IMG/VR virus record: IMGVR_UViG_3300009620_000021
Coordinates: 1-34,650 of that record
DNA from: a virus
Strand: one strand, 5' to 3'
DNA: 34,650 nt
Shown here: positions 4,435 through 18,099 of the stretch, piece by piece
How the letters are laid out: each line of letters begins with the position of its first letter
Numbering within the stretch: the stretch's first letter is position 1
The notes under the pieces: model-generated
Told to the model about the DNA's origin: nothing
Databases searched by the model: none
Seen by the model: the letters and a program-made list of their open reading frames with translations, nothing else
Position numbers and translations under genes: made by a program

Positions 4435-4459
4435 GTCGTCCCTCCTTCTTCAGAATGCT

Positions 4460-4478
4460 GGGGGCTTTATTGCCCTCT
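4460..4478 (-). promoter_or_regulatory. leader hairpin of promoter A transcript
   Basis: On the minus strand this reads as a GGGC stem arm, an AATAAA loop and a GCCC arm, about 15 nt downstream of the -10 of promoter A. It therefore forms near the 5' end of the mRNA. The same block, with 21 identical nt, recurs after promoter C, and a diverged version whose stem is kept recurs after promoter D. Confidence 0.6.
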
Positions 4479-4490
4479 CAGCTGCCCTGC

Positions 4491-4518
4491 AATATAGGCA
4501 ATGCCCCACATTAGTCAA
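4491..4518 (-). promoter_or_regulatory. promoter A with operator palindrome (leftward replication arm)
   Basis: Minus-strand -35 TTGACT (4518-4513), 16-nt spacer, -10 TATATT (4496-4491): a near-consensus sigma-70 promoter reading toward the 4434-to-1 operon. The spacer and -10 form an imperfect palindrome of the type AATATrGGyrATyrCCyATATT, shared with four other sites in the window. An operator in this position would let a bound repressor block polymerase. Confidence 0.8.
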
Positions 4519-4554
4519 GATATTTGTGAAGGGGGCCCTTAAAAAAACCTCCCC

Positions 4555-4578
4555 TGCGCACGCGCGCGCACGCGCGTA
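4555..4578. repeat. 24-nt alternating purine-pyrimidine (CG-rich) tract
   Basis: Every base from 4555 to 4578 alternates pyrimidine and purine, mostly CG and CA steps, the sequence class able to adopt left-handed Z-DNA. It directly abuts an AT-rich palindrome (4577-4612) in the gap between the RecT-like gene and promoter A. Confidence 0.75.
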
Positions 4579-4612
4579 ATAGGTATATAAATAAATATAT
4601 TTATACCTATTA
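4577..4612. repeat. AT-rich 11-bp inverted repeat after the RecT-like gene
   Basis: Arms TAATAGGTATA (4577-4587) and TATACCTATTA (4602-4612) are perfectly complementary around a 14-nt all-AT centre. It begins 5 nt past the RecT-like stop codon. On the minus strand the hairpin is followed by GC sequence rather than a T run, so it is not a textbook intrinsic terminator. It may instead be a cruciform, a transcript-end hairpin or part of a replication origin. Confidence 0.75.
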
Positions 4613-4616
4613 ATTT

Positions 4617-5561
4617 TTAACTTTGAGAAAGAGAGAGGGGACCAAATGCCTCAGCCTGCTTTAGTGCCAGCTGTAACCCTTGCACAATCTCACGCTGGAG
4701 TATGGTCGCGCCCTTTGGAACATCAGCACGTCCTTTGCGGCCGTTTTCTTGGAAGACCTTCCGGTAAGCCGCCTCGCCGTCAGCATGGGCGATCAGTTTT
4801 TCCTTAAGCTCGCCTGCCTCCCGGCAAAATTGCCCATAGGGATGCTCCTGGGTCGGGCTTGTTACGGCCGGTTCTTCACCCGCCGGTGGGCTTTCGGCCA
4901 TAACACGGTCAATCATGGCCGCAGGGCTGTCCTCAGGGCTGTCCTCTGGGATTGCCTTGGGTGCTATAGGTGCCGGTTCATGCTTTCCACCTCGTGGCCC
5001 CCCATTTTGGGGTGGGCCGTCTGCCGGGTCGCTGATTTCTCCGTCCCCGTAGACCGCACCCCCTGCCAGGTGTGGGCAGTAGCGGCGGAAAAATCGGGAC
5101 ATGCAACGACTGAATGTCATATCGTCGAAGTATTGCGACCAGACCGGCTTTTTAAGCAACCCGGCCTTTTCGGCTTCGACCCTGGTGAATGAGATATTTG
5201 GCCGTTGCTGCCATTCGTCGGTGCGTAGGTTCATTTCCCAACACTCGATGACGCAGCCGTCCTTGTCGTGCTGGACGATGTCGTAATCGTAGCGGCCGCT
5301 GCCCTTGATTTTGGAAGACATTACCCCTGACCCCAGCTCAATCTTGCCGTCAAACAGGTGCAAGCCTCTCATGGCCTCGACAGGACCGAGACCGAGGTCA
5401 CGACCGGCGAGAATCTTAACGGCCGCGATGTTGGGGTTGGTTTTTCCGAAACAACCAGACGCGCTTATTACGCGGGCCAATGCCCCCAGGCTCATCCCGG
5501 CATGGAAATCTCCAGCCCCAGCAGAATCAAGGGCTGCGGTGGTAGGGTCGGTTTTTGTCAT
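4617..5561 (-). CDS. RecT-like single-strand annealing protein
   Basis: 314 residues from the ATG at 5561, which has a strong GGAGGAGG site and overlaps the upstream stop as ATGA. Residues about 20-180 follow the RecT-family layout: a region in which NPNIAAVKILAGRDLGL precedes a substrate strand LFDGKIELGSGVM, a KIKGSGRYDYDI segment, an ISFTRVEAEKAGLLKKP helix and DDMTFSRCMSRFFRRYCPHL near the end of the core. The rest (about 185-314) is a proline/glycine-rich linker and a charged helical tail. RecT proteins pair complementary single strands during phage recombination and replication. No exonuclease or SSB partner is visible in the window. It is the main gene driven by promoter B. Family level is fairly secure; the exact subfamily is not. 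Confidence 0.75.
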   Translation of the reverse strand: MTKTDPTTAALDSAGAGDFHAGMSLGALARVISASGCFGKTNPNIAAVKILAGRDLGLGPVEAMRGLHLFDGKIELGSGVMSSKIKGSGRYDYDIVQHDKDGCVIECWEMNLRTDEWQQRPNISFTRVEAEKAGLLKKPVWSQYFDDMTFSRCMSRFFRRYCPHLAGGAVYGDGEISDPADGPPQNGGPRGGKHEPAPIAPKAIPEDSPEDSPAAMIDRVMAESPPAGEEPAVTSPTQEHPYGQFCREAGELKEKLIAHADGEAAYRKVFQENGRKGRADVPKGATILQREIVQGLQLALKQAEAFGPLSLSQS

Positions 5562-5677
5562 GGCGTTCCTCCTCCTGAAATGAGCGCCGGCAGAATCCGC
5601 ACCAGTAGGTAAGCGGTGCCGACGATAGTGAGCCACCACGCGATGCGGTGGCCTCCAGTGTGCCTGGGTGAAGTCAT
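5558..5677 (-). CDS. small single-pass membrane protein
   Basis: 39 residues from the ATG at 5677, preceded by GGAGGGG. Residues about 14-34 (IAWWLTIVGTAYLLVRILPA) form one hydrophobic helix with a short basic N-terminus (RHTGGHR), giving a likely N-in topology. Its stop overlaps the RecT-like start (ATGA), so the two are translated together. An in-frame GTG at 5740 would extend it by 21 residues but lacks a well-placed ribosome site. It is the first gene after promoter B. The family is not recognised; a role in host-membrane modification or exclusion is only a guess. Confidence 0.6.
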   Translation of the reverse strand: MTSPRHTGGHRIAWWLTIVGTAYLLVRILPALISGGGTP

Positions 5678-5690
5678 GTGAGCCCCTCCG

Positions 5691-5719
5691 TTGCTAAAAT
5701 ATGGCTGATTGACTATATT
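5691..5719 (+). promoter_or_regulatory. promoter E with operator palindrome, rightward toward the XRE gene
   Basis: Plus-strand -35 TTGCTA (5691-5696), 17-nt spacer, -10 TATATT (5714-5719). The stretch AATATGGCTGATTGACTATA plus TT (5698-5719) differs at only two of 22 positions from the operator of promoters C and D read on the other strand. It faces promoter B, about 100 bp away. Confidence 0.7.
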
Positions 5720-5732
5720 CTGAAGAAGGAAG

Positions 5733-5760
5733 AGGGGCACCCTATACCCCTTTTTCTCTT
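5733..5760 (+). terminator. leader hairpin plus T-run, possible attenuator before the XRE gene
   Basis: AGGGG (5733-5737) pairs with CCCCT (5747-5751), followed by TTTTTCTCTT. This is a short intrinsic-terminator-like shape between promoter E and the XRE gene. The hairpin starts 13 nt after the -10, matching the leader hairpins of the other four promoters. Confidence 0.45.
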
Positions 5761-5774
5761 TTCCCTCCTCCTTG

Positions 5775-5805
5775 GGGGGCTCGGACCTCGCAGCCCCGGG
5801 CCCCC
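5775..5805 (-). promoter_or_regulatory. leader hairpin of promoter B transcript
   Basis: GGGGGC (5775-5780) and GCCCCC (5800-5805) form a six-pair stem, with an inner CGG/CCG extension after one mismatch. In the leftward transcript it starts about 12 nt after the -10 of promoter B, the same place as the hairpins after promoters A, C and D, although its sequence is different. Confidence 0.5.
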
Positions 5806-5817
5806 TAAGTGTTCTTT

Positions 5818-5846
5818 AATATAGGCAATGACCCATACAAAAGCAA
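5818..5846 (-). promoter_or_regulatory. promoter B with operator palindrome, leftward to the RecT-like operon
   Basis: Minus-strand -35 TTGCTT (5846-5841), 17-nt spacer, -10 TATATT (5823-5818), with the shared operator AATATAGGCAATGACCCATA at 5818-5837. The operator overlaps the 5' edge of the first possible ATG of the XRE gene (5828), so repressor binding here could also affect that gene. Confidence 0.75.
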
Positions 5847-5863
5847 GGAAAAGGTTGACTGCT

Positions 5864-6109
5864 ATGAATCAAGAAACACCAATAAAGCTCAATATTCACC
5901 AGCTTTTAAAGAGGGAGGGTGATGTGTTGGGCCATCGGTTTACGCTCCAGCACCTATCAGCAAAAACGGGCATCGATTACGCCAGCCTCATTGATCATGC
6001 CCACGGCCGAACTAAACGGGTGGATTACACGACTCTGTCACGGCTCAAGCATGCCTTCGGCTGTTCTTGGGATGAGCTGATTGGGCTCCGAGACTCGGAG
6101 CCCGTGTAG
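5864..6109 (+). CDS. XRE/Cro-C1-type helix-turn-helix regulator
   Basis: 81 residues from the ATG at 5864. An upstream in-frame ATG at 5828 lies inside the operator of promoter B, so I prefer 5864, which has AAGG about 9 nt upstream. The HTH core spans about residues 8-74: KLNIHQLLKREG, then FTLQHLSAKTGIDYASLIDH (helix 2, turn, recognition helix), then TTLSRLKHAFGCSWDELI. That last segment is the typical end of this small Cro-like family, in which a single HTH domain is the whole protein. It dimerises on DNA as a repressor in characterised relatives. Its position beside two facing operator-bearing promoters makes it the best candidate for the protein that reads the five shared palindromes. 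Confidence 0.85.
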   Translation: MNQETPIKLNIHQLLKREGDVLGHRFTLQHLSAKTGIDYASLIDHAHGRTKRVDYTTLSRLKHAFGCSWDELIGLRDSEPV

Positions 6110-6210
6110 CAGCCCCCTTTTTTGGCGGGCTTCATCTTAAATGCTTATATTGATTTTATAACCGCACCGCCTGCCGGGGGCAGGTTGATGAATGCCGGGG
6201 GTATTCAAAA
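6110..6210. other. intergenic region before the terminase genes
   Basis: 101 nt. It holds an AT-rich patch (6136-6162) that might contain a weak rightward promoter, but I cannot match a convincing -35 to a -10. A weak AGCCCG/CGGGCT inverted repeat starts inside the end of the XRE gene. The shared operator palindrome is absent, so late transcription probably uses different control. Confidence 0.3.
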
Positions 6211-6738
6211 GTGCCGAAGATCGCAGGGTTAAGCGCCAAACAAAAGCTCTTTGTTGAGGAGTATCTGATCGACCTTAATGCCACAGAAGCGGCGTTAAGG
6301 GCTGGTTACTCTGAAAAATCAGCAGGAGCTATAGGGGCCGAAAACCTTAAAAAACCTCTAATAGCTGCGGCGATAGATGAGGCAATAGCGCGACGCGTCG
6401 AGCAGGTGGAGATTACGCAAGACGCTGTGGTTCAGGAGCTTGCGCTTATTGCCTTCAGTAATGTCTCCAACATCGCCAGCTGGGGCCCCAAGGGCGTCGT
6501 TGTTCGTGAGAGCGAAAACCTCGCGCCATCGGTTTTGTCAGCCGTGGCCCAGCTCTCTGAAACGTCAACCGGCGTCACCCTGCGTATGCACGACAAGCTG
6601 GCCGCGCTCACGAGTCTGGGCCGCCACCTCGGCATGTTCCGCGAGAAGGTGGACCTCGAAATTCGTGACGGGGCTGAGATTGTGAATCGGCTTTTTGCTC
6701 GCCTCGACGACTACGCCGGCCGAATCGAGAGCGGTTAG
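6211..6738 (+). CDS. terS: terminase small subunit
   Basis: 175 residues from a GTG with GGGGG about 9 nt upstream. The start LSAKQKLFVEEYLIDLNATE, then AALRAGYSEKSAGAIGAENL and a KKPLIAAAIDEAI segment is the recurrent N-terminal HTH signature of the Terminase_2 small-subunit family. Then follow a helical oligomerisation region and the C-terminal MHDKLAALTSLGRHLGMF, also typical of this family. The small subunit recognises phage DNA and regulates the large subunit's cutting and ATPase during packaging. Its 3' end overlaps the start of the large subunit gene, as in many phages. It is the first gene of the rightward late region. Confidence 0.92.
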   Translation: MPKIAGLSAKQKLFVEEYLIDLNATEAALRAGYSEKSAGAIGAENLKKPLIAAAIDEAIARRVEQVEITQDAVVQELALIAFSNVSNIASWGPKGVVVRESENLAPSVLSAVAQLSETSTGVTLRMHDKLAALTSLGRHLGMFREKVDLEIRDGAEIVNRLFARLDDYAGRIESG

Positions 6739-8083
6739 TCCCGCCCTGTTGCTGGCGGGATTGCCAGCAGACGAGCGACAAGCCCTGCTTGCGGAGCTGT
6801 CACAGGGTGACCTGGAAACGCTCGCCTACGAATGGGCATTCTGGGCCCGCCCCGAACAGCTGCCGCCCCCGGGGGACTCGTGGGACTTCTGGCTAATAAA
6901 AACGGGGCGCGGGTGGGGCAAGACGCGCACCGGCTCACAGCAAGTGATCGCGTGGGCAAAACAGCACCCGCTGCTGTCGATAGTCGGCGAAACCGCCGCC
7001 GATGTCCGCGATGTGATGGTCAAGGGCGAATCGGGCATTCTCGCCTGTTCCCCGCCCTGGTTTCAGCCGATATACTACCCCTCCAAAACTCAGCTTGTCT
7101 GGCCGAACGGGAGCTGCGCGAATCTGTTCTCTGGCGACGAGCCCGACCAGTTGCGAGGCCCCCAGAGCTGTGCGGCATGGGTCGACGAACTCGCGAAGAT
7201 GCGCTACCACGAGGAAATGTGGGCCAACTTGCTCGCAGGGAATCGCCTCGGCCAACATCCCCAAGTTCTGCTGACAACGACCCCGCGGCCCTTAAAGCTG
7301 CTTCGGGCCCTGGTCCAAGACCCCGCGACTCACGTCACCTCGGGGTCGAGCTATGAAAACCTCAACAACCTCTCCCCGACGTGGCGTCGCACGTTTCTGG
7401 CGCGGTTTGAAGGCACGCGGCTCGGCCGGCAGGAAATCGAGGGGGATATACTCGACGATGTTACAGGGGCGCTGTGGACTGGCACCCAGCTGGAAACGCT
7501 CAGGATACAACTGGAGGCAGGTGAATCCACGGCCGACGTTGTTAAGCGGCTGGGGCTCACCAGAATCGTCGTTGGGGTCGACCCCCAGGCCACCAAAGCG
7601 GCCGACGATGACGAGGGGCACGAAACCGGCATTGTCGTGGCCGGCATCGACAACAACGACAAGTCCGCAGCCCATTTTTTTGTGCTGGAGGACGTCACAG
7701 GAAATTACTCGCCGGCAGAGTGGGGGGCTCAAGCCTGCTCGGCCTTTCATAAATGGCGGGCTGATCGCATCATCGGAGAAGCCAACCAGGGCGGTGATAT
7801 GGTCGAGCACGTCGTCCGTAGCGTCGACGCCAACGTCAGTTTTCGCTCAGTCCATGCGTCCAAGGGTAAAATCACCCGGGCTGAACCCATCGCTGCCATT
7901 TACGAACAGGGCCGGGCGCACCATGTTGGGCAGTTCCCCCGGCTGGAGGATGAAATGACGACATACACCGGGCTCCTCCCCGGTGAAGACTCACCGAACC
8001 GCATGGATGCCGCTGTGTGGGCCGGCACTGAGCTAATGATTGAGGGCGGCACCATCAAGGAACAAAAAATCACAGGAGTTTAA
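6695..8083 (+). CDS. terL: terminase large subunit (packaging ATPase/nuclease)
   Basis: 462 residues at the longest. Walker A reads KTGRGWGKTRTG (about residues 68-79), Walker B SCAAWVDELAKM near 157-168, and a coupling motif LLTTTPRPLK near 190-199. The C-terminal RNase-H-like nuclease has acidic positions in VVGVDPQ (about 291-297) and GEANQGGDMVEHVV (about 361-374). The enzyme pumps DNA into the prohead and cuts the concatemer. The start is uncertain: TTG at 6695 gives a 44-nt overlap with terS, but TTG codons at 6749 or 6764 are also possible, and none has a clear ribosome site. It ends 1 nt before the portal gene. Confidence 0.95.
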   Translation: MLASTTTPAESRAVSPALLLAGLPADERQALLAELSQGDLETLAYEWAFWARPEQLPPPGDSWDFWLIKTGRGWGKTRTGSQQVIAWAKQHPLLSIVGETAADVRDVMVKGESGILACSPPWFQPIYYPSKTQLVWPNGSCANLFSGDEPDQLRGPQSCAAWVDELAKMRYHEEMWANLLAGNRLGQHPQVLLTTTPRPLKLLRALVQDPATHVTSGSSYENLNNLSPTWRRTFLARFEGTRLGRQEIEGDILDDVTGALWTGTQLETLRIQLEAGESTADVVKRLGLTRIVVGVDPQATKAADDDEGHETGIVVAGIDNNDKSAAHFFVLEDVTGNYSPAEWGAQACSAFHKWRADRIIGEANQGGDMVEHVVRSVDANVSFRSVHASKGKITRAEPIAAIYEQGRAHHVGQFPRLEDEMTTYTGLLPGEDSPNRMDAAVWAGTELMIEGGTIKEQKITGV

Positions 8084-8084
8084 G

Positions 8085-9536
8085 ATGCCGAAGGTAGACA
8101 CACCGCATAGTCAACACGCCGCGATGGCCGAACGCTGGCAACGCTGCCGCGATGCAGCAATCGGCCTCGATGCTGTGCGAGAGCAGAAAGGGACATACCT
8201 GCCGATGTTGAGCGGGCAGGATGACACTGAATACAAAGCCTATCTCAAGCGGGCGGACTTTTACGGCGCCCTGCCTCGGTCCATACAGGGCCACCGGGGG
8301 TCTGTCTTCAGAAAGCCGCCCAAGATCGAGGTTCCCGCCGCTATTGAAGATTGGCTTGAAGATGTGACGCTGACCGGCATCGGGCTTGAGGGCCTCCTTG
8401 CTGACGCCTTTGACGAACTGCTGGAGGTGGGCCGTTATGGGCTGTTCGTCGACATGGGCGTAAAGAAAGACGGGCAGGAGCAGCGGCCCTACCTCGTGCT
8501 TACGGCCGCGGAAAATGTGGTTTCGTGGCGCACCACTTCACAGGGTGGGGCCCAGGTTCTCGACCGCGTCGTTCTGCGCGAAGTGGTCGAAGAGGATGAC
8601 CTAGAGGACGAATTCATTCTGAACGAGGTTGAGCAATACCGCGTTCTTGCGATTGCCGAAGGCGTCTTTACCCATACCCTGTATCGGCGGGCCGCTGATG
8701 ACAAGGACGGAGATTGGGAAATCCATGACGTGATCACGCCCGATACTCGGGGCAAGCCGTTCGACTCAATCCCGTTCTGGTTTGGAAACAGCGGGGATAT
8801 GACTCCTGATGTCGACAAGCCGCCGCTCATGGAGGTGGCCGACTTATGCCTCTCGATGTGGCGCAATAGCGCCGACCTTGAAAACGGCTTTCACTATGTC
8901 GGCATCCCGACCCCGTGGGTGGCTGGGTTCCCTGTCGGGACGAGCCTGCGCATTGGCTCTAACACGGCCTGGGTGAGCGATAAGACCGACGCGAAGGCTG
9001 ATATGCTCGAATTCTCTGGGCAGGGCCTCAAGGGGCTCTCAGAGCACATAGACGGCAAAAAAAGCGACTGTGCGGTGTTCGGCTCCCGCCTCCTTGAGGA
9101 GCAGAAAAAGACCGCCGAAACCGCCGAGACTGTGCGCCTTCGCCATGCGGGTGAGACCGCTTCCCTCATGTCGATGGCCGCAGTGGTGGACGCTACATTC
9201 ACCGCGGCCCTTGAATTCGCGACAATGTGGGCCGGTCAGTCGGGGGATGTCTTGGTTGAGCTCAACCGCGACCTTCTGGCCGTCAAGGCAACGCCGCAAG
9301 AGCTACAGGCCCTCACAGCTGCCGTCCAGGCTGGTTTAATGAGTTTCGAGACCTACTATTACAACCTGGAACAGCTTGAACTCACGCGGCCTGCCGTGGA
9401 CGCTGAGGAGGAAAGCGGCGAGATAGACAACGACGGCAACAAGGCCGTCGTTAACCATTTCGCTCAGGGTCGCCCTGCGGACGAAGCGGAGGAACAGAAG
9501 GCCGAGGGGCTGGCCGAACAGGTGGTAGCTGCGTAA
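8085..9536 (+). CDS. portal protein (DUF4055 type)
   Basis: 483 residues from the ATG at 8085 with AGGAG upstream. KAYLKRADFYGALPRSIQGH, then GSVFRKPP near the N-terminus, followed by EVGRYGLFVDM, IPFWFGN and PLMEVADLCLSMWRNSADLE, match the DUF4055 portal-like family. In this family an N-terminal membrane-free wing precedes a helical stem rich in QKKTAETAETVRLRHAGE. The portal forms the dodecameric ring through which DNA is packaged and to which the tail connects. Its placement directly after terL supports this. The tail end is acidic and glutamine-rich (AEEQKAEGLAEQ), which is common for the portal barrel end. Confidence 0.85.
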   Translation: MPKVDTPHSQHAAMAERWQRCRDAAIGLDAVREQKGTYLPMLSGQDDTEYKAYLKRADFYGALPRSIQGHRGSVFRKPPKIEVPAAIEDWLEDVTLTGIGLEGLLADAFDELLEVGRYGLFVDMGVKKDGQEQRPYLVLTAAENVVSWRTTSQGGAQVLDRVVLREVVEEDDLEDEFILNEVEQYRVLAIAEGVFTHTLYRRAADDKDGDWEIHDVITPDTRGKPFDSIPFWFGNSGDMTPDVDKPPLMEVADLCLSMWRNSADLENGFHYVGIPTPWVAGFPVGTSLRIGSNTAWVSDKTDAKADMLEFSGQGLKGLSEHIDGKKSDCAVFGSRLLEEQKKTAETAETVRLRHAGETASLMSMAAVVDATFTAALEFATMWAGQSGDVLVELNRDLLAVKATPQELQALTAAVQAGLMSFETYYYNLEQLELTRPAVDAEEESGEIDNDGNKAVVNHFAQGRPADEAEEQKAEGLAEQVVAA

Positions 9537-9570
9537 ATCCAGCCGGCCCCCCTTAAAAGAGTCTCAAAAT

Positions 9571-9687
9571 ATGCCGATCCCTTCTGACCATGTTCAAAAT
9601 ACGACGCTGCTGGCTCATGGGGAGGCACTGGCAGAGCTAAAGGGCAGGTTGCAGATTTTGGAAGCCCGACTGTGGAAGAGCAAATAG
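9571..9687 (+). CDS. very small protein, 38 aa
   Basis: 38 residues (ATG at 9571, TAG at 9685-9687). The second half, HGEALAELKGRLQILEARLW, can form an amphipathic coiled-coil helix. The ribosome site is weak (AAAAGAG, 10 nt upstream). It overlaps the next gene's GTG by 16 nt, the typical arrangement of real coupled genes. The function is unknown; a small helical adapter or assembly factor is possible. Confidence 0.5.
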   Translation: MPIPSDHVQNTTLLAHGEALAELKGRLQILEARLWKSK

Positions 9688-10073
9688 CTGATAAAATCAC
9701 CTCCCCGCTGGCCGAGGAGGTGATGGTGATTCTCGGCGAATTTTGGTGGCTGGTCTGCCTTTTTGTCGGGATAATCGTTTTTAAGGAGACGATCAAGTCG
9801 TTCGTCACCTCGATTATGGTACTGCGCAGCGGCACCTACGTCGTCGATGAAATTGTAATATTAGAGGGCAGCCCCGCAAGGATTGTCAGAATCGGCGTCT
9901 GGAAAACGACCTTCTACGTCTACCGCCGCCTTAACGGGGGGCGGCTGTTTCATTCGACCCGCGATGTGATGAACGAAGCACTGCCTTCGCTGCACATAGA
10001 AATCCCACAACAGAGGATGGATCAACTCATTCCCGATGAATTACTGGTCCCAAGGGACCCGTCAGAGAATTAA
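9672..10073 (+). CDS. small membrane protein with MscS-like beta domain
   Basis: 133 residues from a GTG. One strongly hydrophobic helix (about residues 22-46, VILGEFWWLVCLFVGIIVFK and on) is followed by a short compact domain: VVDEIVILEGSPARIVRIGV, TTFYVYRRLNGGR and DVMNEAL. That pattern resembles the beta domain of MscS mechanosensitive channels, where GDxVxIxGxxGxVxxIxxxxT is followed by a loop ending in an IPN-x-x-L strand. Here GD is replaced by VD and IPN by TRD. A full MscS has three membrane helices; only one is seen here, so it may be a channel-like scaffold or regulator rather than a working channel. It sits in the head module between the portal and the MuF gene. Family call is by pattern only. 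Confidence 0.5.
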   Translation: MEEQIADKITSPLAEEVMVILGEFWWLVCLFVGIIVFKETIKSFVTSIMVLRSGTYVVDEIVILEGSPARIVRIGVWKTTFYVYRRLNGGRLFHSTRDVMNEALPSLHIEIPQQRMDQLIPDELLVPRDPSEN

Positions 10074-10076
10074 TAA

Positions 10077-13000
10077 ATGCCGCTCACTATACCCACAATG
10101 ATCGCGGAAATGCACCAGCTTCGAGACACCCTCGAAAAGGAGGTCGTGGGGGCTGCTGCCGTGGAGCTACAGGGCATTTTCGGCGCTGCAGAGGTCGAGC
10201 TGGCGAAGCAGGAGAAGCTGTTTCAGGCGCTGCTCACTGATGCTGATGGGAAGATACAAAACATCCCCGCGAACCTTGAAGCCGCGGGGGCTTATTACCG
10301 TGACACTGTAAAGCCCCAGATCGACAGCGTGCTCGTGGGCCCGGGCAAGGCGTGGTCGGAAAAGACTGTCCCGCTGATGCACAAAGCCGGGCGCCGCTTG
10401 GCCTCAGTGAACCTCGACGTCGGCGATCTGTCGCCCGAGCTGGTTAAAAGCGCCTTCGATAACATCTCCATCGCCGAAAAGGGCGTTCTAACCGTCGGGT
10501 TCAAGCAGGGTTATCAGGTGATGAACACGGTGGGCGATGACGTCGGGACGTGGTTTCGGCAGACCATGCTCGACTCGGTCGTTGAAGGAATTCCCGTGGA
10601 TCACTACGACCCGAACGTCGATAGCCTGAAGTCGAGGCTAATCCAAGGGGGCCGCATAAAGCCGCTTACCATTAAGTCGATGAGCGGGAAGACCATTCAC
10701 CGCTCGATCCGACAGCGGGCCCAGGCCATTGCCCGCATCGAGTCGACCCGCATAATCAACCGCACCCATGAGGCCCTGGCCGAGGAAACCCTTGGCGATG
10801 AGGCCGTTTTTAGGAACAGCAACCCCCAGGATTCCCGCTCGACAAGGATCTGTGAATCGGCCTCCACCCAGAAAGCGATGTCCCTGGAGCAGTGGGACAA
10901 TTCCAAATATGGCCGCCCGCCGCGGCTCAGTCCGTTCCATCTCTGTCGCAGCGTCTTAATAGCCGGGCGCCCCGAGTGGTTCGACGATGTCCCCGAGGCC
11001 CAGCTGCAAGGGGCCGGGCTGGCAAAGACCACTCTTACAGGGGTTCCCCTTAAACCCTCTAAGGCCGCCGTTAGCCGGGCAACCACTAAGGCCGCACAGG
11101 AAGCCCTGCAACAGGCGGCAATCGCTGCTGCGAAGGATCTGGCCGCTGATACGGCCGCCAAGGCCGCCCTTGAGGCGCTGAGAAAGAAGCTCAAGCTCGG
11201 GCAGAAGATCGACAGCACTCTCAGCATGGTGTCGGAGATTGACCCCCTTAAGTTTCACAAAGCCTCAGACTTGAAGCTCCCAGGGGGTGAAAAGGCAAGC
11301 CTTGCGCCGGCGATCTGGGAAGCGAAGCAGGCGCTGAAACCCCTTGAAAAGCTGCTTGATGAAGACCTTTTACTGTATAAGGCAGTGGCAGCAGCTGATG
11401 AGTTTGGTGTCAAGGAAAAGCTGGTTACCGATGGAATCAACGGTGCAAAGTTCAAGATTGTCAGCCAAGACATTGAGCTTAAGATACCAGCAGCGGCAAA
11501 AAAGCAGGTGGAGGAATGGGGGCAAGGGGTCCATGCAGAGATAGAATTTGATCCGAAGCTGAAGCCCCTTCTTGATGAAGCTCAAGCCCTGTCCCCCGAC
11601 CTAAATATAAAGGCAACCTGGGGGCAGCAATATGAGCAGAGGATTTCAGCAGCCATTGGAGAAAAGCAGACCCCCCTAATTCTCAAGTTCCAGGAAGCCG
11701 CAGATTACACCAAGGTTCAAGATGGCATTAAGTCATTGGAGGACGTGCACTCTGAAGCAAAGGCGGCTTGGAGTGAAATGCTTCACTCAAATCTCTTTAA
11801 TGACCTACAGATGAAGCCTTATGAGGATCAAGTCCTTGGCTACTCCTGGCAGATCCAAGCAATCGGCAAAAAAACCGACTTTGACGCGCTCATCTTAAAA
11901 ATTGAGGGTTCTGACCCTAATAATCCTGATGTTCAGGGCTTTATTAGAAAAGCCGTTAAGGCGGGGGACGAAGGCGTTCACCTTGATTCAATGGCCTTCG
12001 GATTAGACAAGGTGGGGGTCTCCGAGGCAGTTAAAGATGCGATTGATGTGGGCAAGGCAAGCTCCAATGTTGGAAAGATTGAGGAATATACCGCCCTTCT
12101 TAATTCGATCAGCGAGGGAAAGCTGACCGCGGCCGCATTGAAGAAGACGAAGAAGAAAGCCAAAGACCTCGCCCTGGGCCCAGGGGGCATACACGAAACG
12201 GTCTTTGACAAGGCTTCCTGGGGGCCGTCTGATGTTGCGAAAGCGATTAAGGCCGCCGAGGATGAGGCCGCCGCCCTGGTTTCACCCGAGGCGATGGCGT
12301 TCCACCTCGAATATGAGAAGCTGGTCACCTCGAAGAAGATCACCCCTGTTGATTCCGCCGAAATCCTTCAGAAATACAAAGACGGCAAGCTCGTCGGGAA
12401 GGCGAGCGCCAAGGCTAAACAAGCCTCAGAAACCGTCAAGGACCAGCTGGGGCCGCCCTCCCCGGCTATAGTCCAGGCACCCGCTCCGCCGCCCTCACCA
12501 ACGGCTCACTTGGACGAATGGAAAAAGGTGGACCAGGCATGGGAGGGCATAGATCCAGCCGACCACTTCACCTTCAAAGAAGTTGCCAATATCGGGGGGG
12601 CCCATTCTAAGGAATTCTGGCTTGACCCAAGCGGTGACAAATGGATGTTTAAGCCGTTTCCCCACGCAACGAAAAAGGAAGCGACTTATAGGGGGATGGT
12701 GGACGAGTTTGCCTATAAGCTGCAACGACTCGTGGACCCCGTTGCAGCTGAGGCTCGCTTTGTGGAGCTGTCCGATGGCCGCCGGGGCAGCATTCAGCGG
12801 TGGATTGAGGGGTCTGATGGTAACCTGAGAAATAAGCCGATCACTGGGCTAACCCCATCCCAGCTGGAGACCATTCAGAAAGAGCATGTTCTGGATTGGC
12901 TAATCAGCAACCATGACGGGCACCCCGGTCAGCTGATCACTTTCCCAGATGGCCGCATTGTCGGCATTGACAAGGGGCAGGCATTCAAGTTCCTGGGTGA

Positions 13001-15179
13001 CGATAAACTCGATTTTGATTATCACCCGAATAGTGCATTCGGTGAATCTGAGCCGATTTACAATACGGCCATGAAGGCGCTTCGGGATGGGGATATAGAG
13101 CTTGATTTTTATGACCCGGTGGTCACCTTAAAGGCAATCGAGCAATTCGAGGCGATCCCTGAAACTAAGTACCGGGACATGCTCGAAGGATATGCTCAAA
13201 ACCGCTTTCGCACCAGGGCCCAGCGGGTGGAATTCATTGATCTGGCCGTGGCGCGGAAAAATGCGCTGCGGGCCGACTTTGAGGGGTATTACCGGCGGGC
13301 CCTGAAGGATGAGACTTTTACGTTTGGGCAGAAAGCAGCACCGGCGGTGGACGTTGAAGGGGTTCTCCCGCAAGCCTTTCGCGAAGTAGCCGAAGAAGCT
13401 GAGGAGCATGGGTGGCAGGGGAAGGCCATAGACCTTGATGGGGAAGACATTGAAGACCTCCGGGCAGTTTATTACGCCGACCATATGACTGACAGCGCCG
13501 GCGTAGGACATGACCGGGCCAACCTCGACCTTAAGGTCAGGCATTCCGGGGGTGAGAAGGTCATGGAATGGATTAACAAGCAAAACATCGAAGGGGGTCT
13601 GCCAACCCCAGTGGGGGGTGAGAGGGTGGGGACACCAATGGCCCAAGATACGTTTTTTCCGAAAATTGAGGCCGCAGTTAAAACCCTTAATATGCACGTC
13701 AAGTCGGGTGATTTTGACTTTAATGAGTCAACGCTTAATGCCATGAATGTTGAAAGGCCGAGCTTAAACCTTCTGGCAACCCATGCTGACCCCGAAGTGG
13801 CTAAAATGGCAAAGGCTTATATGAAGGTGATGGATGACGTGAATGAAGGGGTGTTGTCCAAAACAGCCCTTAAAACCTTCCCCGAGGGGGTCACGGACCC
13901 AGCACCGCATCTTTCTGGGAAGATGTATGGGCCTTATCTACGCCAGAACCCCCCACCGGGAAGCGTGCCCGCAGCAGCAGCCCCCTCGCCGACGGCTGGC
14001 TTTACCGTCCGCCGTGAGACAATCCATTTTACGGAAAGGACGCCGGGGGGCGATGGAGGCCTCACCGTTAATAACGACCGCGCTCGTGGGAGTTCCATGC
14101 ACAATAACTTTTACGATACTGATACCGTCCAATATGAAATAACATTTGACGATGGGACGCGCATCAGATATAGGCCGTATGACGGAAATAACGACGGATG
14201 GAGGGCACAGCAGGGAATCATTGAGGGGACAGTCAATGGTGACATGGGGGCCGGCACAATGGATCAAATACTTGAGAAAATCAAAATAATGGGCCTGGAC
14301 ACGAAGGTTGCCACCCCGGATGACTTTGAGCTCATGTATTTAAAAAAGCAGGCATACTGCACCAAGGAACACATTACGCCGTCATATATTTCTATGATTG
14401 AAGACCTGAACACAAGGGGGGCAAGCCAGAGCGAGCGCATTGCTGCAATGCGTAAGCACTGGTCAAAGAAAAAGAAGATCAAGGACAAAATGAAGGCGGC
14501 AGGGGTCACTGAATTGCAAGATTTACCAGACTACAACCCCACTGGTGAATTTCAATCGTCTTTCTTTGGAAAGAGGTCCACCCCGGGCCCTGACTACACC
14601 AAAAGCGCAGGCTACAGGTCCTTTTATCGATTCGACCTTGACGATGCTGACACTGACCGATTTACCTTGCAGCATAGCTTATATACTGGTGGTGACATGG
14701 CGGCATCCATCAGTAAGTATTTACAGAACAACGGTGTCATGGCCTCGACGAATGAAAAAATGAGGATCGGCATTCCAGTTAGTGGAATGTCTCCTGGGGG
14801 TGATATGCAAAAAGGAGGTGCTGTTTACTTTTATACCCGCCTGCGGCATAAGACTGGGATGCGAAAGGGGCAGCTCTACTTTAAGGGCAAAAACCTTCGG
14901 CGAATGGATGCTGCCATTTATAAAGGCGACGCTTGGGGTGATACACGGAATGATTTTCAGACTAAAAACCGTAAGCCAACTCCGAGTAATTGGGACACTA
15001 TTGCCAGAAAAAGAGACGATGACGAAACTGATTTTAAGACGTCGATGTCCCTTATTGATGACATTGACGTAATTTTAACGAAGACAAGCACAGAGCGCCG
15101 AGAGGTGATAAAAGCATATAAAGACGCTGGGTGGGATGTTTTGCCAGATGGTCGTGCAATCGAGGAGGTCGTTAAGTGA
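10077..15179 (+). CDS. MuF-type head morphogenesis protein fused to a PI3/4- or HipA-like kinase domain and further C-terminal domains (polyvalent protein)
   Basis: 1,700 residues, about four times a usual MuF protein. Residues about 130-300 form a MuF/SPP1 gp7-type domain (RAQAIARIESTRIINRTHEA and LSPFHLCRSVL). Residues 300-800 are Ala/Lys-rich helices with a proline linker (PAPPPSPT). Residues about 813-1045 look like a HipA or phosphoinositide-kinase-type catalytic domain: WMFKPF with Lys859, DWLISNHDGHPGQ with Asp947, and VGIDKGQAF with Asp965 as the metal-binding Asp. Later regions include an IPVSGMSP...GGAVYFYTRL block and a C-terminal SLIDDIDVI...DGRAIEEVV block, which I recall from other very large phage proteins without known function. 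MuF proteins are packaged in proheads, so a DNA-injected effector is plausible. Only the kinase motifs support enzymatic activity. Confidence 0.8.
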   Translation: MPLTIPTMIAEMHQLRDTLEKEVVGAAAVELQGIFGAAEVELAKQEKLFQALLTDADGKIQNIPANLEAAGAYYRDTVKPQIDSVLVGPGKAWSEKTVPLMHKAGRRLASVNLDVGDLSPELVKSAFDNISIAEKGVLTVGFKQGYQVMNTVGDDVGTWFRQTMLDSVVEGIPVDHYDPNVDSLKSRLIQGGRIKPLTIKSMSGKTIHRSIRQRAQAIARIESTRIINRTHEALAEETLGDEAVFRNSNPQDSRSTRICESASTQKAMSLEQWDNSKYGRPPRLSPFHLCRSVLIAGRPEWFDDVPEAQLQGAGLAKTTLTGVPLKPSKAAVSRATTKAAQEALQQAAIAAAKDLAADTAAKAALEALRKKLKLGQKIDSTLSMVSEIDPLKFHKASDLKLPGGEKASLAPAIWEAKQALKPLEKLLDEDLLLYKAVAAADEFGVKEKLVTDGINGAKFKIVSQDIELKIPAAAKKQVEEWGQGVHAEIEFDPKLKPLLDEAQALSPDLNIKATWGQQYEQRISAAIGEKQTPLILKFQEAADYTKVQDGIKSLEDVHSEAKAAWSEMLHSNLFNDLQMKPYEDQVLGYSWQIQAIGKKTDFDALILKIEGSDPNNPDVQGFIRKAVKAGDEGVHLDSMAFGLDKVGVSEAVKDAIDVGKASSNVGKIEEYTALLNSISEGKLTAAALKKTKKKAKDLALGPGGIHETVFDKASWGPSDVAKAIKAAEDEAAALVSPEAMAFHLEYEKLVTSKKITPVDSAEILQKYKDGKLVGKASAKAKQASETVKDQLGPPSPAIVQAPAPPPSPTAHLDEWKKVDQAWEGIDPADHFTFKEVANIGGAHSKEFWLDPSGDKWMFKPFPHATKKEATYRGMVDEFAYKLQRLVDPVAAEARFVELSDGRRGSIQRWIEGSDGNLRNKPITGLTPSQLETIQKEHVLDWLISNHDGHPGQLITFPDGRIVGIDKGQAFKFLGDDKLDFDYHPNSAFGESEPIYNTAMKALRDGDIELDFYDPVVTLKAIEQFEAIPETKYRDMLEGYAQNRFRTRAQRVEFIDLAVARKNALRADFEGYYRRALKDETFTFGQKAAPAVDVEGVLPQAFREVAEEAEEHGWQGKAIDLDGEDIEDLRAVYYADHMTDSAGVGHDRANLDLKVRHSGGEKVMEWINKQNIEGGLPTPVGGERVGTPMAQDTFFPKIEAAVKTLNMHVKSGDFDFNESTLNAMNVERPSLNLLATHADPEVAKMAKAYMKVMDDVNEGVLSKTALKTFPEGVTDPAPHLSGKMYGPYLRQNPPPGSVPAAAAPSPTAGFTVRRETIHFTERTPGGDGGLTVNNDRARGSSMHNNFYDTDTVQYEITFDDGTRIRYRPYDGNNDGWRAQQGIIEGTVNGDMGAGTMDQILEKIKIMGLDTKVATPDDFELMYLKKQAYCTKEHITPSYISMIEDLNTRGASQSERIAAMRKHWSKKKKIKDKMKAAGVTELQDLPDYNPTGEFQSSFFGKRSTPGPDYTKSAGYRSFYRFDLDDADTDRFTLQHSLYTGGDMAASISKYLQNNGVMASTNEKMRIGIPVSGMSPGGDMQKGGAVYFYTRLRHKTGMRKGQLYFKGKNLRRMDAAIYKGDAWGDTRNDFQTKNRKPTPSNWDTIARKRDDDETDFKTSMSLIDDIDVILTKTSTERREVIKAYKDAGWDVLPDGRAIEEVVK

Positions 15180-15661
15180 CGGACGTGGAGAAGCTGACCC
15201 GGGATGTGATTCTGCCCCTTCTTAAGCCGTTTAAGCAGGGGGTATTCCTTGACTTGGATGGCGAGCCGTATGCGCTATTGGTTGAGGTGGTGGTCGTGAG
15301 GGTCCAACCGCTGTATGACCATGATGGGAAAATCACCGGCGTCGTGCCTTATCTGCTGTGCAAGCACCTGGGATATGAGGAGGATGAGGCTTCAGTTAAA
15401 ATGATTCATGGGGCTGAATGGTCAACAGATGGGGATATTCTGACAATGACCAGTTACAACGACGTTCACCAGTGGCGCCTCACCCCAGCCACTGAGAGGG
15501 AGCAGGCCAGAATCAAAGCATGGCGTAGGAAGGCAGGAGACACGTCAGGAGTGGATGCTTACCTGCTGGAAGAGTGGAAATTTATGGCCACCGGGTGGAC
15601 TCCACCGGAGATGAACGAGGAAGAAGAAGAAGACGAATTGCCTGAAACGGTGGACCCATGA
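15176..15661 (+). CDS. hypothetical protein with acidic C-terminus, 161 aa
   Basis: 161 residues from a GTG overlapping the MuF gene stop (GTGA at 15176-15179). The N-terminal part alternates hydrophobic and polar residues (KQGVFLDLDGEPYALLVEVV) as in beta sheet; the end is strongly acidic (NEEEEEDELPE). No cysteine cluster, membrane segment or known catalytic motif is visible. Its overlap with the giant MuF gene and with the following gene indicates a translationally coupled set. It may be an immunity or chaperone-like partner of the C-terminal domains of the MuF protein; that is only a positional guess. Confidence 0.7.
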   Translation: MTDVEKLTRDVILPLLKPFKQGVFLDLDGEPYALLVEVVVVRVQPLYDHDGKITGVVPYLLCKHLGYEEDEASVKMIHGAEWSTDGDILTMTSYNDVHQWRLTPATEREQARIKAWRRKAGDTSGVDAYLLEEWKFMATGWTPPEMNEEEEEDELPETVDP

Positions 15662-16011
15662 GGTTTATGATTGAATGGACGTATGGGCCGCAGGAGCATT
15701 ATAGGCCGGTGGGGGTGTGGGTGGATGATGGGGCAAACATGACCGTTGCATTCACTTCCCCGGTTGCAAGTGGGGGCCATGCACGGGATGTTATGGCACG
15801 GATGCAGGGTGAAGCAGTGATCCCCCGTGACTTCCTGGAGTTTCACGTCACAGACACCCTCCCCCCACAGATGGGGGACCGCGGCCCCATCTATGACACT
15901 GACAGGTATAAGACCGTGGCCCAGTGTGCCGATGCCGTGGTGCGTCATATACGGGAAAGCTGGGACAACGATGCTCGGCGATGGACGAAGGATTTGGCCG
16001 TTCTGACCTGA
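15658..16011 (+). CDS. hypothetical protein, 117 aa
   Basis: 117 residues; the start overlaps the upstream stop as ATGA (15658-15661). It begins with an alternating aromatic/hydrophobic strand (MRFMIEWTYGPQEHYRP) and ends in a basic helix (RHIRESWDNDARRWTKD). I do not recognise the family. It is the last rightward gene before the convergent minus-strand island; the two stops are separated by only 1 nt, with no room for a separate terminator. Confidence 0.7.
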   Translation: MRFMIEWTYGPQEHYRPVGVWVDDGANMTVAFTSPVASGGHARDVMARMQGEAVIPRDFLEFHVTDTLPPQMGDRGPIYDTDRYKTVAQCADAVVRHIRESWDNDARRWTKDLAVLT

Positions 16012-16012
16012 C

Positions 16013-16519
16013 CTACCACTCCCCAGCCATTAGCCTCTGATAATGAAAGCCGTCACCGCCGAGGGCTTCAATGATATTAATAGGTTCCCCGGCGAATCCG
16101 CGCAGCTCGTTATTGTAAATCAAAACGTGGGACTGAATGCGACGCCACGTATGGAAGCAAAACTCCAGCCCAAGCTCTGACGGTATCCACAGGCCCGAAT
16201 CTTTGCGAGCCGGGTCATTGTCGTGGACCTTGTGCTTAATAAGGCCCCACCATTCCAACTTGGCGTAATCACCGCCCCTGACCATGCCTGGCGGGGCTTG
16301 CCGAGGGACATCTATCCACCCCGTCTCCGGTGAGTAGGTGCGACACATCCACACAAGCATCTCGGCAAGCCCTTTATACAGCCGCCTTCTGTACTGCTGG
16401 ACGTGCTGGTCACAACACGGGCAATGCACCGCACTCTTACTCACGCCCAGACCTGAGAAGAGTGCGGTGCGGGCCTCCATAAGGGACGGGCCAAATAGGT
16501 CGCCCTTAGAAGATAGCAA
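16013..16519 (-). CDS. conserved phage zinc-finger protein, possible winged-helix DNA binder
   Basis: 168 residues from a TTG at 16519 (an internal ATG at 16480 would remove 13 residues; neither has a strong ribosome site). A CPCC motif (residues about 34-37) is followed by HVQQYRRRLYKGLAEMLVWM, then GGDYAKLEWWGLIKHKVHD, GLWIPSELGLEFCFH and LIYNNELRGFAGEPINI. This order (zinc knuckle, helix, DYAKLxxWGLI turn, G-x-W-x-P-T-x-x-G wing, IYNxx) is one I know from uncharacterised proteins of many phages and looks like a winged-helix fold. It is the last gene of the leftward island transcript. DNA binding is inferred. Confidence 0.75.
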   Translation of the reverse strand: MLSSKGDLFGPSLMEARTALFSGLGVSKSAVHCPCCDQHVQQYRRRLYKGLAEMLVWMCRTYSPETGWIDVPRQAPPGMVRGGDYAKLEWWGLIKHKVHDNDPARKDSGLWIPSELGLEFCFHTWRRIQSHVLIYNNELRGFAGEPINIIEALGGDGFHYQRLMAGEW

Positions 16520-17063
16520 GGAAGAGACTCAGGACTCCAAAAAGAATCCCGCCACCGATTGCCATTCCAATGCCGAACTCTCTGGCAGCAAAACCAGGCT
16601 CCTTTAATGCGTCTTTCACTGAAACGGTTCGGCGCCTCTTACGACCACCCACCGGCTCACCACCCCCTGAAAACTTCCGGGGCGGTTCTTTGATCTGTGG
16701 AACAGTTCCATCAATGGCGAACTTTTCGCCGATTTTGCAGCACTCCAAAGCAGGCCGGGGGTCAAGGATATACTGACCTCGTTCGACCCGGGCCAGAATG
16801 TCAGGGCTGATCTTTAGAAGCCAAGCCATCTTTTTCTTCGTGATACCGAGACAGCAGCGCAGTTCACGAATATAATCTCCGGTGATACCTTCAGGAGAAA
16901 TGCCTGCCGTGAAGGGCAGCGGTTCGAGGTCCATTTTAAAGGCCCTTGTCCCAATACGTTTTTCAAGTTCATTGGCTACAAATTCAAGGTTCTCGTCTTT
17001 TCGCAGGGCATCATTGACGGTATCTGTGAAAAACCTCTTAATCCTATTCCGCGGTGCATGCAT
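16506..17063 (-). CDS. HTH protein with C-terminal membrane anchor
   Basis: 185 residues from ATG at 17063. Residues about 63-114 form a Cro/C1-type helix-turn-helix (DYIRELRCCLGITKKKMAWL and on, then ISPDILARVERGQYILDP), the regulator-like half. A basic, glycine-rich linker with GGRKRRRTVS precedes a single hydrophobic C-terminal helix of about 23 residues (FGIGMAIGGGILFGVLSLFL at its core), so the protein is probably tail-anchored with its DNA-binding part in the cytoplasm. Membrane-tethered HTH proteins are unusual in phages. It lies in the minus-strand island downstream of promoter C. It could be the second candidate reader of the shared operator, or a sensor. Confidence 0.78.
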   Translation of the reverse strand: MHAPRNRIKRFFTDTVNDALRKDENLEFVANELEKRIGTRAFKMDLEPLPFTAGISPEGITGDYIRELRCCLGITKKKMAWLLKISPDILARVERGQYILDPRPALECCKIGEKFAIDGTVPQIKEPPRKFSGGGEPVGGRKRRRTVSVKDALKEPGFAAREFGIGMAIGGGILFGVLSLFLAIF

Positions 17064-17077
17064 TTCCCGTCTCCTTT

Positions 17078-17356
17078 TTAACTGGGGTCAAAATAAGAGG
17101 CGCCAGTCCCACAGCGGCACATTCCACCACTGCCTGGTCGCCATTCGTGAATAAACCCAGTGCCATCGCAGAGGTGGCACTGGGTTTCCATCTTTTCCAT
17201 CTTTTCCCTTGCTACATCAAGGGCAGCTTGAGCGGCGGCAAGTGCTTCCGCCGATACACCTTCAAGGGCTTCAGACGCGGCGTCTAAGCGTAGCTGCGCC
17301 ACCCTGAAGCCCTCAGCGGGGGTTAACCCCATCAAACTACTTATCACCCCCTTCAT
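17078..17356 (-). CDS. small protein with DnaJ-type zinc knuckle
   Basis: 92 residues from the ATG at 17356, which overlaps the upstream gene; GTG at 17347 or ATG at 17332 are alternative starts. The first half is an Ala-rich helix (ASEALEGVSAEALAAAQAAL), the second half holds CHLCDGTGFI and, 14 residues later, CRCGTG. This is the CxxCxGTG type of zinc knuckle found in DnaJ and phage zinc-finger proteins. It may bind protein or nucleic acid. It belongs to the leftward island operon. Confidence 0.65.
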   Translation of the reverse strand: MKGVISSLMGLTPAEGFRVAQLRLDAASEALEGVSAEALAAAQAALDVAREKMEKMETQCHLCDGTGFIHEWRPGSGGMCRCGTGASYFDPS

Positions 17357-17588
17357 CCAAGCCGTTCAGCACATCTTCAATGCTGTTGCCCTCTTCATCC
17401 TTGGGGGGAATTGCTTCATCGCCCAGACCCAGGGCATTCCGCTCCCTCTTCTCTTTGTATACGGCGTCAATAATGTCCGCCGCTCGCTTCGCAATCTGTT
17501 CTGCCTTCAGTATGGCACCAACCTCGGTTCCGGCGATATTGGCCGCTACGATGTTCGTGCTCATGTGCCATCCGCGTCCTCGTGGCAT
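17337..17588 (-). CDS. hypothetical protein, 83 aa (TEVGAIL motif)
   Basis: 83 residues from an ATG preceded by AGAGGAG. It is the first gene after promoter C. Residues about 21-30 (TEVGAILKAE) closely match TEVGAILETA in the gene at 17728-18018, and the DNA there is also nearly identical over about 22 nt. The C-terminal half is charged and acidic (PPKDEEGNSIEDVLNGLDEG). I do not recognise the family; the shared motif points to a common partner. Confidence 0.65.
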   Translation of the reverse strand: MPRGRGWHMSTNIVAANIAGTEVGAILKAEQIAKRAADIIDAVYKEKRERNALGLGDEAIPPKDEEGNSIEDVLNGLDEGGDK

Positions 17589-17609
17589 GTTGCTGCTCCT
17601 CTTTTTAGT

Positions 17610-17628
17610 GGGGGCTTTATTGCCCTCT
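17610..17628 (-). promoter_or_regulatory. leader hairpin of promoter C transcript
   Basis: Identical to the promoter A leader block: GGGC, AATAAA loop, GCCC on the minus strand, starting about 15 nt after the -10. The intervening bases differ, so this block is conserved independently of the flanks. Confidence 0.6.
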
Positions 17629-17639
17629 CACTGAAACTC

Positions 17640-17668
17640 AATATAGGCAATCACCCATATTAAGTCAA
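17640..17668 (-). promoter_or_regulatory. promoter C with operator palindrome (island, leftward)
   Basis: Minus-strand -35 TTGACT (17668-17663), ideal 17-nt spacer, -10 TATATT (17645-17640). The operator AATATAGGCAATCACCCATA plus TT (17640-17661) is identical to that of promoter D. It drives the four genes from 17588 to 16013. Confidence 0.8.
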
Positions 17669-17669
17669 G

Positions 17670-17706
17670 CCTGACACCAACTTTCTAAAAAAAAACTGGT
17701 GTCAGG
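17670..17706. repeat. 10-bp perfect inverted repeat with A9/T9 in the loop
   Basis: CCTGACACCA (17670-17679) and TGGTGTCAGG (17697-17706) are perfectly complementary with a 17-nt loop containing nine consecutive A. It sits between the stop of the gene at 17728-18018 and the -35 of promoter C. Since the T run (minus strand) is inside the loop rather than after the stem, it is not a textbook terminator, but it may still end the promoter D transcript or act as an upstream element for promoter C. Confidence 0.7.
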
Positions 17707-17727
17707 GTGTGGCTCCCTTTCATTATA

Positions 17728-18018
17728 TTATAGGCTCCCCTGGCGCATGTGCTCGTCTTCGATGGTCTGATCCTTGTCAACATCACAGAAAGGAACGTAA
17801 AGCGTGACATCTTCAGTTGCGATCCGTGCTGTCTCCAGTATGGCACCGACCTCGGTTGTGCTGGTGACGAAGCGTACAAGTAACTCACCACCGTAGACGC
17901 AGAAGGAACCCTTGAACACAGGCTGATCTATGCCAACGACAATTGCCTTGGATTTGTCGCCTGTCCAAGGATTGGTGACGATGACCCTGTCACCCTCTGT
18001 GAAGGTTTTCTTTGCCAT
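17728..18018 (-). CDS. hypothetical protein, 96 aa, beta-rich (SH3-like?)
   Basis: 96 residues, ATG preceded by AAAGGAG. The N-terminal FTEGDRVIVTNPWTGDKSKA, then YGGELLVRFV, suggests a small beta barrel of SH3/KOW type. Residues 54-70 (TTEVGAILETARIATED) repeat a motif of the neighbouring 83-residue protein. The gene is the only one on the promoter D transcript before the inverted repeat at 17670-17706. The function is unknown. Confidence 0.65.
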   Translation of the reverse strand: MAKKTFTEGDRVIVTNPWTGDKSKAIVVGIDQPVFKGSFCVYGGELLVRFVTSTTEVGAILETARIATEDVTLYVPFCDVDKDQTIEDEHMRQGSL

Positions 18019-18041
18019 TTTGTTTCCGTCTCCTTTTTGCC

Positions 18042-18060
18042 GGGAGCCTTATTGCCCCTC
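18042..18060 (-). promoter_or_regulatory. leader hairpin of promoter D transcript
   Basis: On the minus strand GGGGC, AATAAG, GCTCC, starting about 13 nt after the -10. Compared with the A and C blocks the stem bases differ, yet pairing is kept with one G-U pair. Confidence 0.55.
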
Positions 18061-18071
18061 GACTACTCAAT

Positions 18072-18099
18072 AATATAGGCAATCACCCATATTAGTCAA
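18072..18099 (-). promoter_or_regulatory. promoter D with operator palindrome (island, leftward)
   Basis: Minus-strand -35 TTGACT (18099-18094), 16-nt spacer, -10 TATATT (18077-18072). The operator (18072-18093) has half-sites AATATrGG and CCyATATT around a central AT. It drives the 96-residue gene. Confidence 0.8.

Follow-up and report, generated by a model that had tools for sequence, protein, structure and literature searches.

The viral record IMGVR_UViG_3300009620_000021 from IMG/VR, a linear sequence of 34,650 bases (55.7% G+C; hereafter the window), contains five sigma-70-type promoters (A–E) that have in common a 22-bp imperfect palindrome; this palindrome fills most of the spacer between the −35 and −10 hexamers and includes the −10. 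The RNAs predicted to start at these promoters are paired from nucleotide (nt) 1 or 2 in all five cases. Our favored reading, which we hold to be somewhat more probable than its negation, is that the five promoters constitute a regulon with a single operator that is repressed by a helix-turn-helix (HTH) protein and that yields transcripts made resistant to decay by a 5′ stem-loop.

Four of the promoters are on the minus strand: A (TTGACT-16-TATATT, 4491–4518; operator 4491–4512), B (TTGCTT-17-TATATT, 5818–5846; operator 5818–5839), C (TTGACT-17-TATATT, 17640–17668; operator 17640–17661), and D (TTGACT-16-TATATT, 18072–18099; operator 18072–18093, the same as that of C). The fifth, E (TTGCTA-17-TATATT, 5691–5719; operator 5698–5719), is on the plus strand and faces B. 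A preliminary description of this DNA had reported 22-mers at these positions and had called all five promoters near-consensus. The latter holds for A, C, and D (10 of 12 consensus bases in a promoter scan) and for E (9 of 12), but B was not listed by the scan, and its weak −35 hexamer has 3 of 6 consensus bases by manual count. The 22-mers themselves are beyond chance expectation: using the consensus and allowing up to three mismatches, the window gives five matches, as compared to none in 100 dinucleotide shuffles. A position weight matrix (PWM) also recovers each site when that site is omitted from its construction (26.7, 26.8, 33.3, 33.3, and 27.9 bits for A–E), with ranks of 5, 5, 1, 1, and 5 among every window position on both strands; that is, all five stand far above background. 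The best position that is not a site scores 12.0 bits in the scan with the full PWM and at most 13.3 bits in the listed leave-one-out scans; the reverse readings of the operator sites themselves score up to 16.1 bits. The ranks are unchanged when the 16-nt spacer part is used without the −10, so the conservation is more than that of a promoter alone. A sigma-70 promoter does not depend on these spacer bases for its own function, and a shared DNA-binding regulator for the five sites is well supported on this sequence evidence.

The symmetry of the operator is imperfect (6–8 of 11 position pairs match); the half that contains the −10 (AATATAGGCAA, read from the far end) is the same in A–D and differs by one base in E, and the other half is more variable. 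A protein that covers the −10 across a spacer of normal length is expected to repress, as established for lambda-type repressors; because the spacers are 16, 17, 17, 16, and 17 bp (A–E), RNA polymerase should be blocked by a protein bound there. Spacer activation of the MerR type is ruled out by these standard lengths, since MerR-type operators lie in overlong spacers of 19–20 bp. The stoperators of mycobacteriophages are repressor sites that lack symmetry, lie inside transcription units, and share one orientation with respect to the direction of transcription. As in that system, one repressor site is repeated over the genome; however, all five sites described here are in promoters and are roughly symmetric, and no site within a transcription unit exceeds 12 bits (the next site scores 12.0 bits), so we rejected a stoperator system.

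The operator was seen solely in five near-identical IMG/VR contigs. One of these, L007, is a second contig of the same phage and contains the A, B, and E sites but no additional site at three mismatches. The promoter blocks that are present in other contigs are all identical, so comparison of strains provides no test of conservation; and no sequenced close kin were found, so the operators could not be aligned across related phages.

We took the predicted RNA start to be the eighth base after the −10, an offset that was picked after offsets 1–16 had been looked at. All five promoters have an A there (4483, 5810, 17632, 18064, and 5727 for A, B, C, D, and E, respectively), and the position agrees with the usual distance between the −10 and +1 and with the preference for a purine start. 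From this base, the leader hairpins of A (4457–4482), B (5771–5809), and D (18039–18063), all on the minus strand, begin at nt 2 of the predicted RNA, that is, with one unpaired 5′ nucleotide; those of C (17607–17632, minus strand) and E (5727–5757, plus strand) begin at nt 1 and have none. The minimum free energies (MFEs) are −15.2, −24.5, −11.7, −13.7, and −14.0 kcal/mol for A–E. A start at the seventh base would leave 1–2 nt unpaired and a start at the ninth base none. The full stems thus start 8–9 nt past the −10, not 12–15 nt as had been reported; the earlier figure describes the inner, GC stem. The hairpins of A, C, and D stand upstream of a free Shine-Dalgarno sequence.

The significance of the hairpins differs among the promoters. 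In 2000 shuffles of each 60-nt leader, the fractions with the first pair at nt 1–2 and an MFE at least as low as that observed were 0.009 (A), 0.0015 (B), 0.004 (C), 0.0015 (D), and 0.23 (E); with a looser, common MFE threshold of −10, they were 0.11, 0.38, 0.016, 0.030, and 0.37 (A–E). In longer leaders, the z-scores were −1.68 (A), −3.02 (C), −2.59 (D), −0.76 (B), and −0.91 (E). As controls, 1137 of 6000 random 45-mers from the window are paired by nt 2 at the latest and reach an MFE of −10 or lower (163 of the 6000 also start with A), as do 2 of 11 other promoter-like sites. The claim of a hairpin is therefore firm at C and D, no more than fair at A and B (and there at their full stability only), and weak at E, which does not rise above chance.

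Three of the leaders (A, C, and D) are related in sequence. An alignment shows 22 nt of the hairpin to be exactly the same in A and C; the hairpin blocks had been called identical, which is correct for this segment, but the outer stems differ and each is paired within itself. The outer four pairs are GCUG-CAGC in A, AGUG-CACU in C, and GUCG-CGGC in D: the arms pair at 12 of 12 positions when taken from the same site, as compared to 16 of 24 when the arms are swapped between sites. The inner stem is the same in A and C; that of D, as had been described, is different yet still paired, so that D differs in both stem parts and pairs with its own arms in each. (MAFFT placed D out of structural register in an alignment of the three hairpins, so the arms were compared directly.) The segments between the −10 and the hairpin and before the start codon have diverged. 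This mosaic, in only three related sequences, suggests selection on the RNA fold. The core GGGCAATAARGCYCCC is found in 90 stretches in the viral_contigs set, eight of which are from this phage, and the rough chance expectation is ~80 matches; the 82 other stretches have no operator-like promoter upstream (by eye) and none has the exact operator pattern, so we rejected a widespread RNA motif.

Promoters C and D also share direct repeats: 23 nt at the operator (100% identity), 25 nt in the hairpin block (80%), and 39 nt in the first gene (85%). The 39-nt repeat (17491–17529 and 17819–17857) is located in two neighboring small genes, the proteins encoded by which share a TEVGAIL motif; these first proteins after C and D can be aligned over 21 residues, 10 of which are identical. 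The spacings of the repeats differ (432 and 328), so insertions and deletions came afterwards. C and D thus probably arose, together with their first genes, by a tandem duplication that has since diverged; they count as one event and not as independent evidence. The 'five copies' of the preliminary description are five real sites, but their independence was overstated, because the leaders at A, C, and D belong to a single lineage and C and D look duplicated.

The best candidate for the common regulator, judging from its sequence and location, is the 81-residue product of the plus-strand gene at 5864–6109, downstream of E. The protein matches the Cro/C1-type Pfam family HTH_26 (26.9 bits; cut-off 22) and PHROG 2967, 'transcriptional regulator' (E 0.00042). 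A structure model predicted from the single sequence has a predicted local distance difference test score (pLDDT) of 68.4 and a predicted template modeling score of 0.51; the best solved matches in Foldseek are SinR (E 0.032), a Rhodococcus XRE protein, SaPI Stl, DdrO, P22 c2, and 434 Cro. A search for solved relatives by sequence gave none, only one match at chance level. The preliminary description had inferred a common repressor and had singled out this protein for a binding test; the HTH domain, the direction of E toward the gene, and the location of B and E directly upstream agree with that choice, although the tie to the operator is positional. In the viral_contigs set the protein has four loci, three from this phage and one with 47% identity over 41 residues; in the phages set it has two weak matches, both to Streptococcus phages.

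Alternatively, the operator might be bound by a host regulator or by another phage protein, for example, the products of 16506–17063 or 2492–2827; we consider this unlikely. The former, encoded in the operon after C, has a weak match to HTH_31, but this match is at 20.1 bits against a Pfam cut-off of 27 and the structure model is uninformative (pLDDT 44.2); the latter matched no family. Both are weaker candidates than the 81-residue protein, and the absence of the exact operator from the genome_contigs set argues mildly against a host site.

Promoters B and E point toward each other; from their predicted starts, the 84 nt at 5727–5810 would be transcribed in both directions, with the leader of each holding the complement of the hairpin of the other; the two hairpins are unrelated to those of A, C, and D, in agreement with the earlier statement that a different sequence folds at the same spot. 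B reads to an ORF (open reading frame) of 39 codons (5558–5677, by eye) and then to a RecT-like gene, and E reads to the HTH gene. Past the RecT-like gene, an alternating GC run (gcgcacgcgcgcgcacgcgcg) is located beside an AT-rich imperfect palindrome (4555–4613; possibly the terminator, by eye). This arrangement could also be that of a temperate-phage immunity switch, in which the HTH protein would be the lysogeny repressor expressed from E and B the facing lytic promoter, analogous to pL and pR of phage 186. According to PMC7708051, the lytic and lysogenic promoters of the phage 186 switch face each other, with interference; as in phage 186/P2, the promoters described here face across a short overlap beside a small HTH gene. 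The HTH reading frame also ends in a strong 10-bp inverted repeat (6083–6103; some bases on, CCCCCTTTTTT), so the E transcript may be monocistronic. Unlike in phage 186/P2, B and E carry the same operator. Neither the exact operator pattern nor the HTH protein was found in the genome_contigs set, so that no prophage copy of either was seen there. The scans named no integrase, recombinase, or partition gene, either among the proteins of the window that they covered or in the scanned part of the 3.6 kb that is missing from it (the C-5 cytosine methylase and one ORF of 132 codons); some ORFs were outside the scans, for example, the 882-codon ORF of L007. Lysogeny is thus not supported, and we judge an immunity switch improbable.

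Two other explanations concern the leaders. The hairpin might be a recognition site, either an antitermination signal of the nut/put kind or a binding site for a protein that recognizes the GGGCAAUAARGC loop in the RNAs of A, C, and D; in these leaders, the loop and inner stem are better conserved than the flanks, beyond what a plain stem needs. However, common ancestry accounts equally well for the shared loop, and the unrelated hairpins at the same place in B and E indicate that no common sequence is needed. The window had no match in Rfam (no search for boxA was made), and no antiterminator was named, although most of the small ORFs have no match. This explanation is, in our judgment, quite improbable. 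That the DNA of the hairpin provides an extra half-operator, with GGCAAT holding a second dimer or closing a loop, is very improbable: GGCAAT is found in the operator half-sites of A–D and recurs, at a nearly constant distance, in the A, C, and D leaders, but the B and E leaders lack it, six bases within one leader lineage could easily be chance, and pairing from the first nucleotides of the RNA would be left unexplained. DNA-hairpin promoters of the N4 kind were set aside, as canonical −35 and −10 boxes precede the hairpin.

In the regulon that we favor, the palindrome between the −35 and −10 would be bound by a dimer of a Cro/C1-type protein (the product of 5864–6109 being the most likely one), which would exclude RNA polymerase. 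The repressor would limit its own synthesis through E and silence the leftward genes, that is, the RecT-like gene (B), the left-hand operon (A), and a leftward island within the rightward structural genes (C and D). A possible late promoter, an operator-free promoter-like site ahead of the small terminase gene (6122–6151), would stay on; the RNA that starts at its eighth base has 3 unpaired nt (MFE −14.6). The regulated transcripts would open with a stem-loop preceded by 0–1 unpaired nt and so, in a host with comparable enzymes, resist RppH and 5′-end-dependent RNase E, which would let the early mRNAs persist until shut-off of their promoters. A role of the hairpin in mRNA stability would agree with its position at the predicted 5′ end and with the pairing of each outer stem of A, C, and D with its own partner. 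According to the review PMC3997798, RppH of Bacillus subtilis requires at least two unpaired 5′ nucleotides.

Several points weigh against this reading. The HTH protein appears tied to the operator by position alone, its structure model is of medium confidence with no fold match reaching an E of 0.001, and NCBIfam gave only weak sigma-factor matches, far under the cut-offs. The start offset was selected only after offsets 1–16 had been viewed, the E hairpin is indistinguishable from shuffles of its own leader, and one swap of outer arms (A5′-D3′) also pairs 4 of 4, through a wobble. Given the common ancestry of the A, C, and D leaders, the five amount to at most about three independent cases. 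The candidate late promoter is one of 16 promoter-like matches, with 10 expected by chance.

On the minus strand, the first gene after A (3766–4434) encodes 222 residues, parts of which are 28–38% identical to hypothetical proteins of seven phages. The RecT-like single-strand annealing protein downstream of B (314 residues; 4617–5561, minus strand) matches PHROG 561 (E 2e-6) but no Pfam family; tblastn matches it to three annotated annealing proteins, and in the search for kin its three loci are all from this phage. Four leftward ORFs after C (17337–17588, 17078–17356, 16506–17063, and 16013–16519) are close or overlapping and may be an operon (16013–17588). A leftward ORF of 96 codons follows D (17728–18018) and has the 39-nt repeat in common with the first ORF after C. 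The left-side leftward genes also encode a PAPS-reductase-like protein (PHROG 424; under the Pfam cut-off), and a SET-domain protein (1091–1465; Pfam E 1.2e-8) is encoded in the leftward operon. A C-5 cytosine methylase, carried on L007, is among the leftward genes. The rightward genes are structural: small and large terminase, portal, scaffold, and major head protein (PHROGs) and tape measure (Pfam).

L007 runs from the end of the window via ~3.6 kb to its start, so the full genome is probably near 38 kb. The segment that joins 34650 to 1 (L007 541–4137) contains the rest of a tail-fiber-like ORF, small ORFs, and the start of the C-5 cytosine methylase region; the tail-fiber-like ORF (32980–34450 and L007) has many repeats of a GNVGIGT-like motif (ggcaacgtcggcatcggcac; by eye). 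Directly after the portal gene, ~119 bases of the window (9554–9672) are missing from, or swapped for 15 in, L006, L007, and L090. A 1700-residue protein (10077–15179) matches only a PHROG without assigned function and, weakly, head morphogenesis. The portal protein has six loci in the viral_contigs set (three from this phage and three with 31–32% identity) and matches 1306 records of the phages set, every one at less than 60%; megablast of window positions 1–25000 against the latter gave zero matches. A tRNA search of the window found none.

The proposed circuit resembles those of phages with Cro/C1-type regulators (lambda, P22, 434, and the N15-like Cro) in that a small HTH protein is encoded beside its own promoter and palindromic operators overlap sigma-70 promoters, the regulator's own (E) included, so that negative autoregulation is expected. 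It differs from them in that its operators occur singly, at five promoters spread over the genome (two within the structural gene region), and in that a second repressor or integrase was not named in the scans made. The 5′ stem-loops of ompA and papA have reportedly been studied. In stabilizers of the ompA and T4 gene 32 type (PMC3997798 and PMC8948821), a hairpin is located at or near the 5′ end of the RNA, as is predicted here, and the latter source describes a 5′ hairpin that stabilizes the T4 gene 32 mRNA. Unlike these, the putative stabilizers described here accompany one and the same operator-promoter at five sites; in searches of the literature, we recognized no operator-hairpin early module that is the same as that of this phage.

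A repressor regulon by itself is ordinary. We tentatively entertain, as a doubtful extension, that a cassette (the operator-promoter plus a hairpin that starts from transcribed base 1 or 2) has been copied to spread the regulon, that drifting copies keep the outer stem by compensating changes, and that the 84-nt complementary leaders of B and E may add antisense control. If this were so, every early gene added would come under the same repressor and would also receive a 5′ end that resists decay. Provided that the RNAs start where predicted, a single module, copied at least twice in a phage of the 38-kb class, would combine control of transcription with protection of the RNA; such a module would provide a test case for the survival of early mRNAs in phages without RNA-decay proteins of their own and a design for a portable expression cassette.

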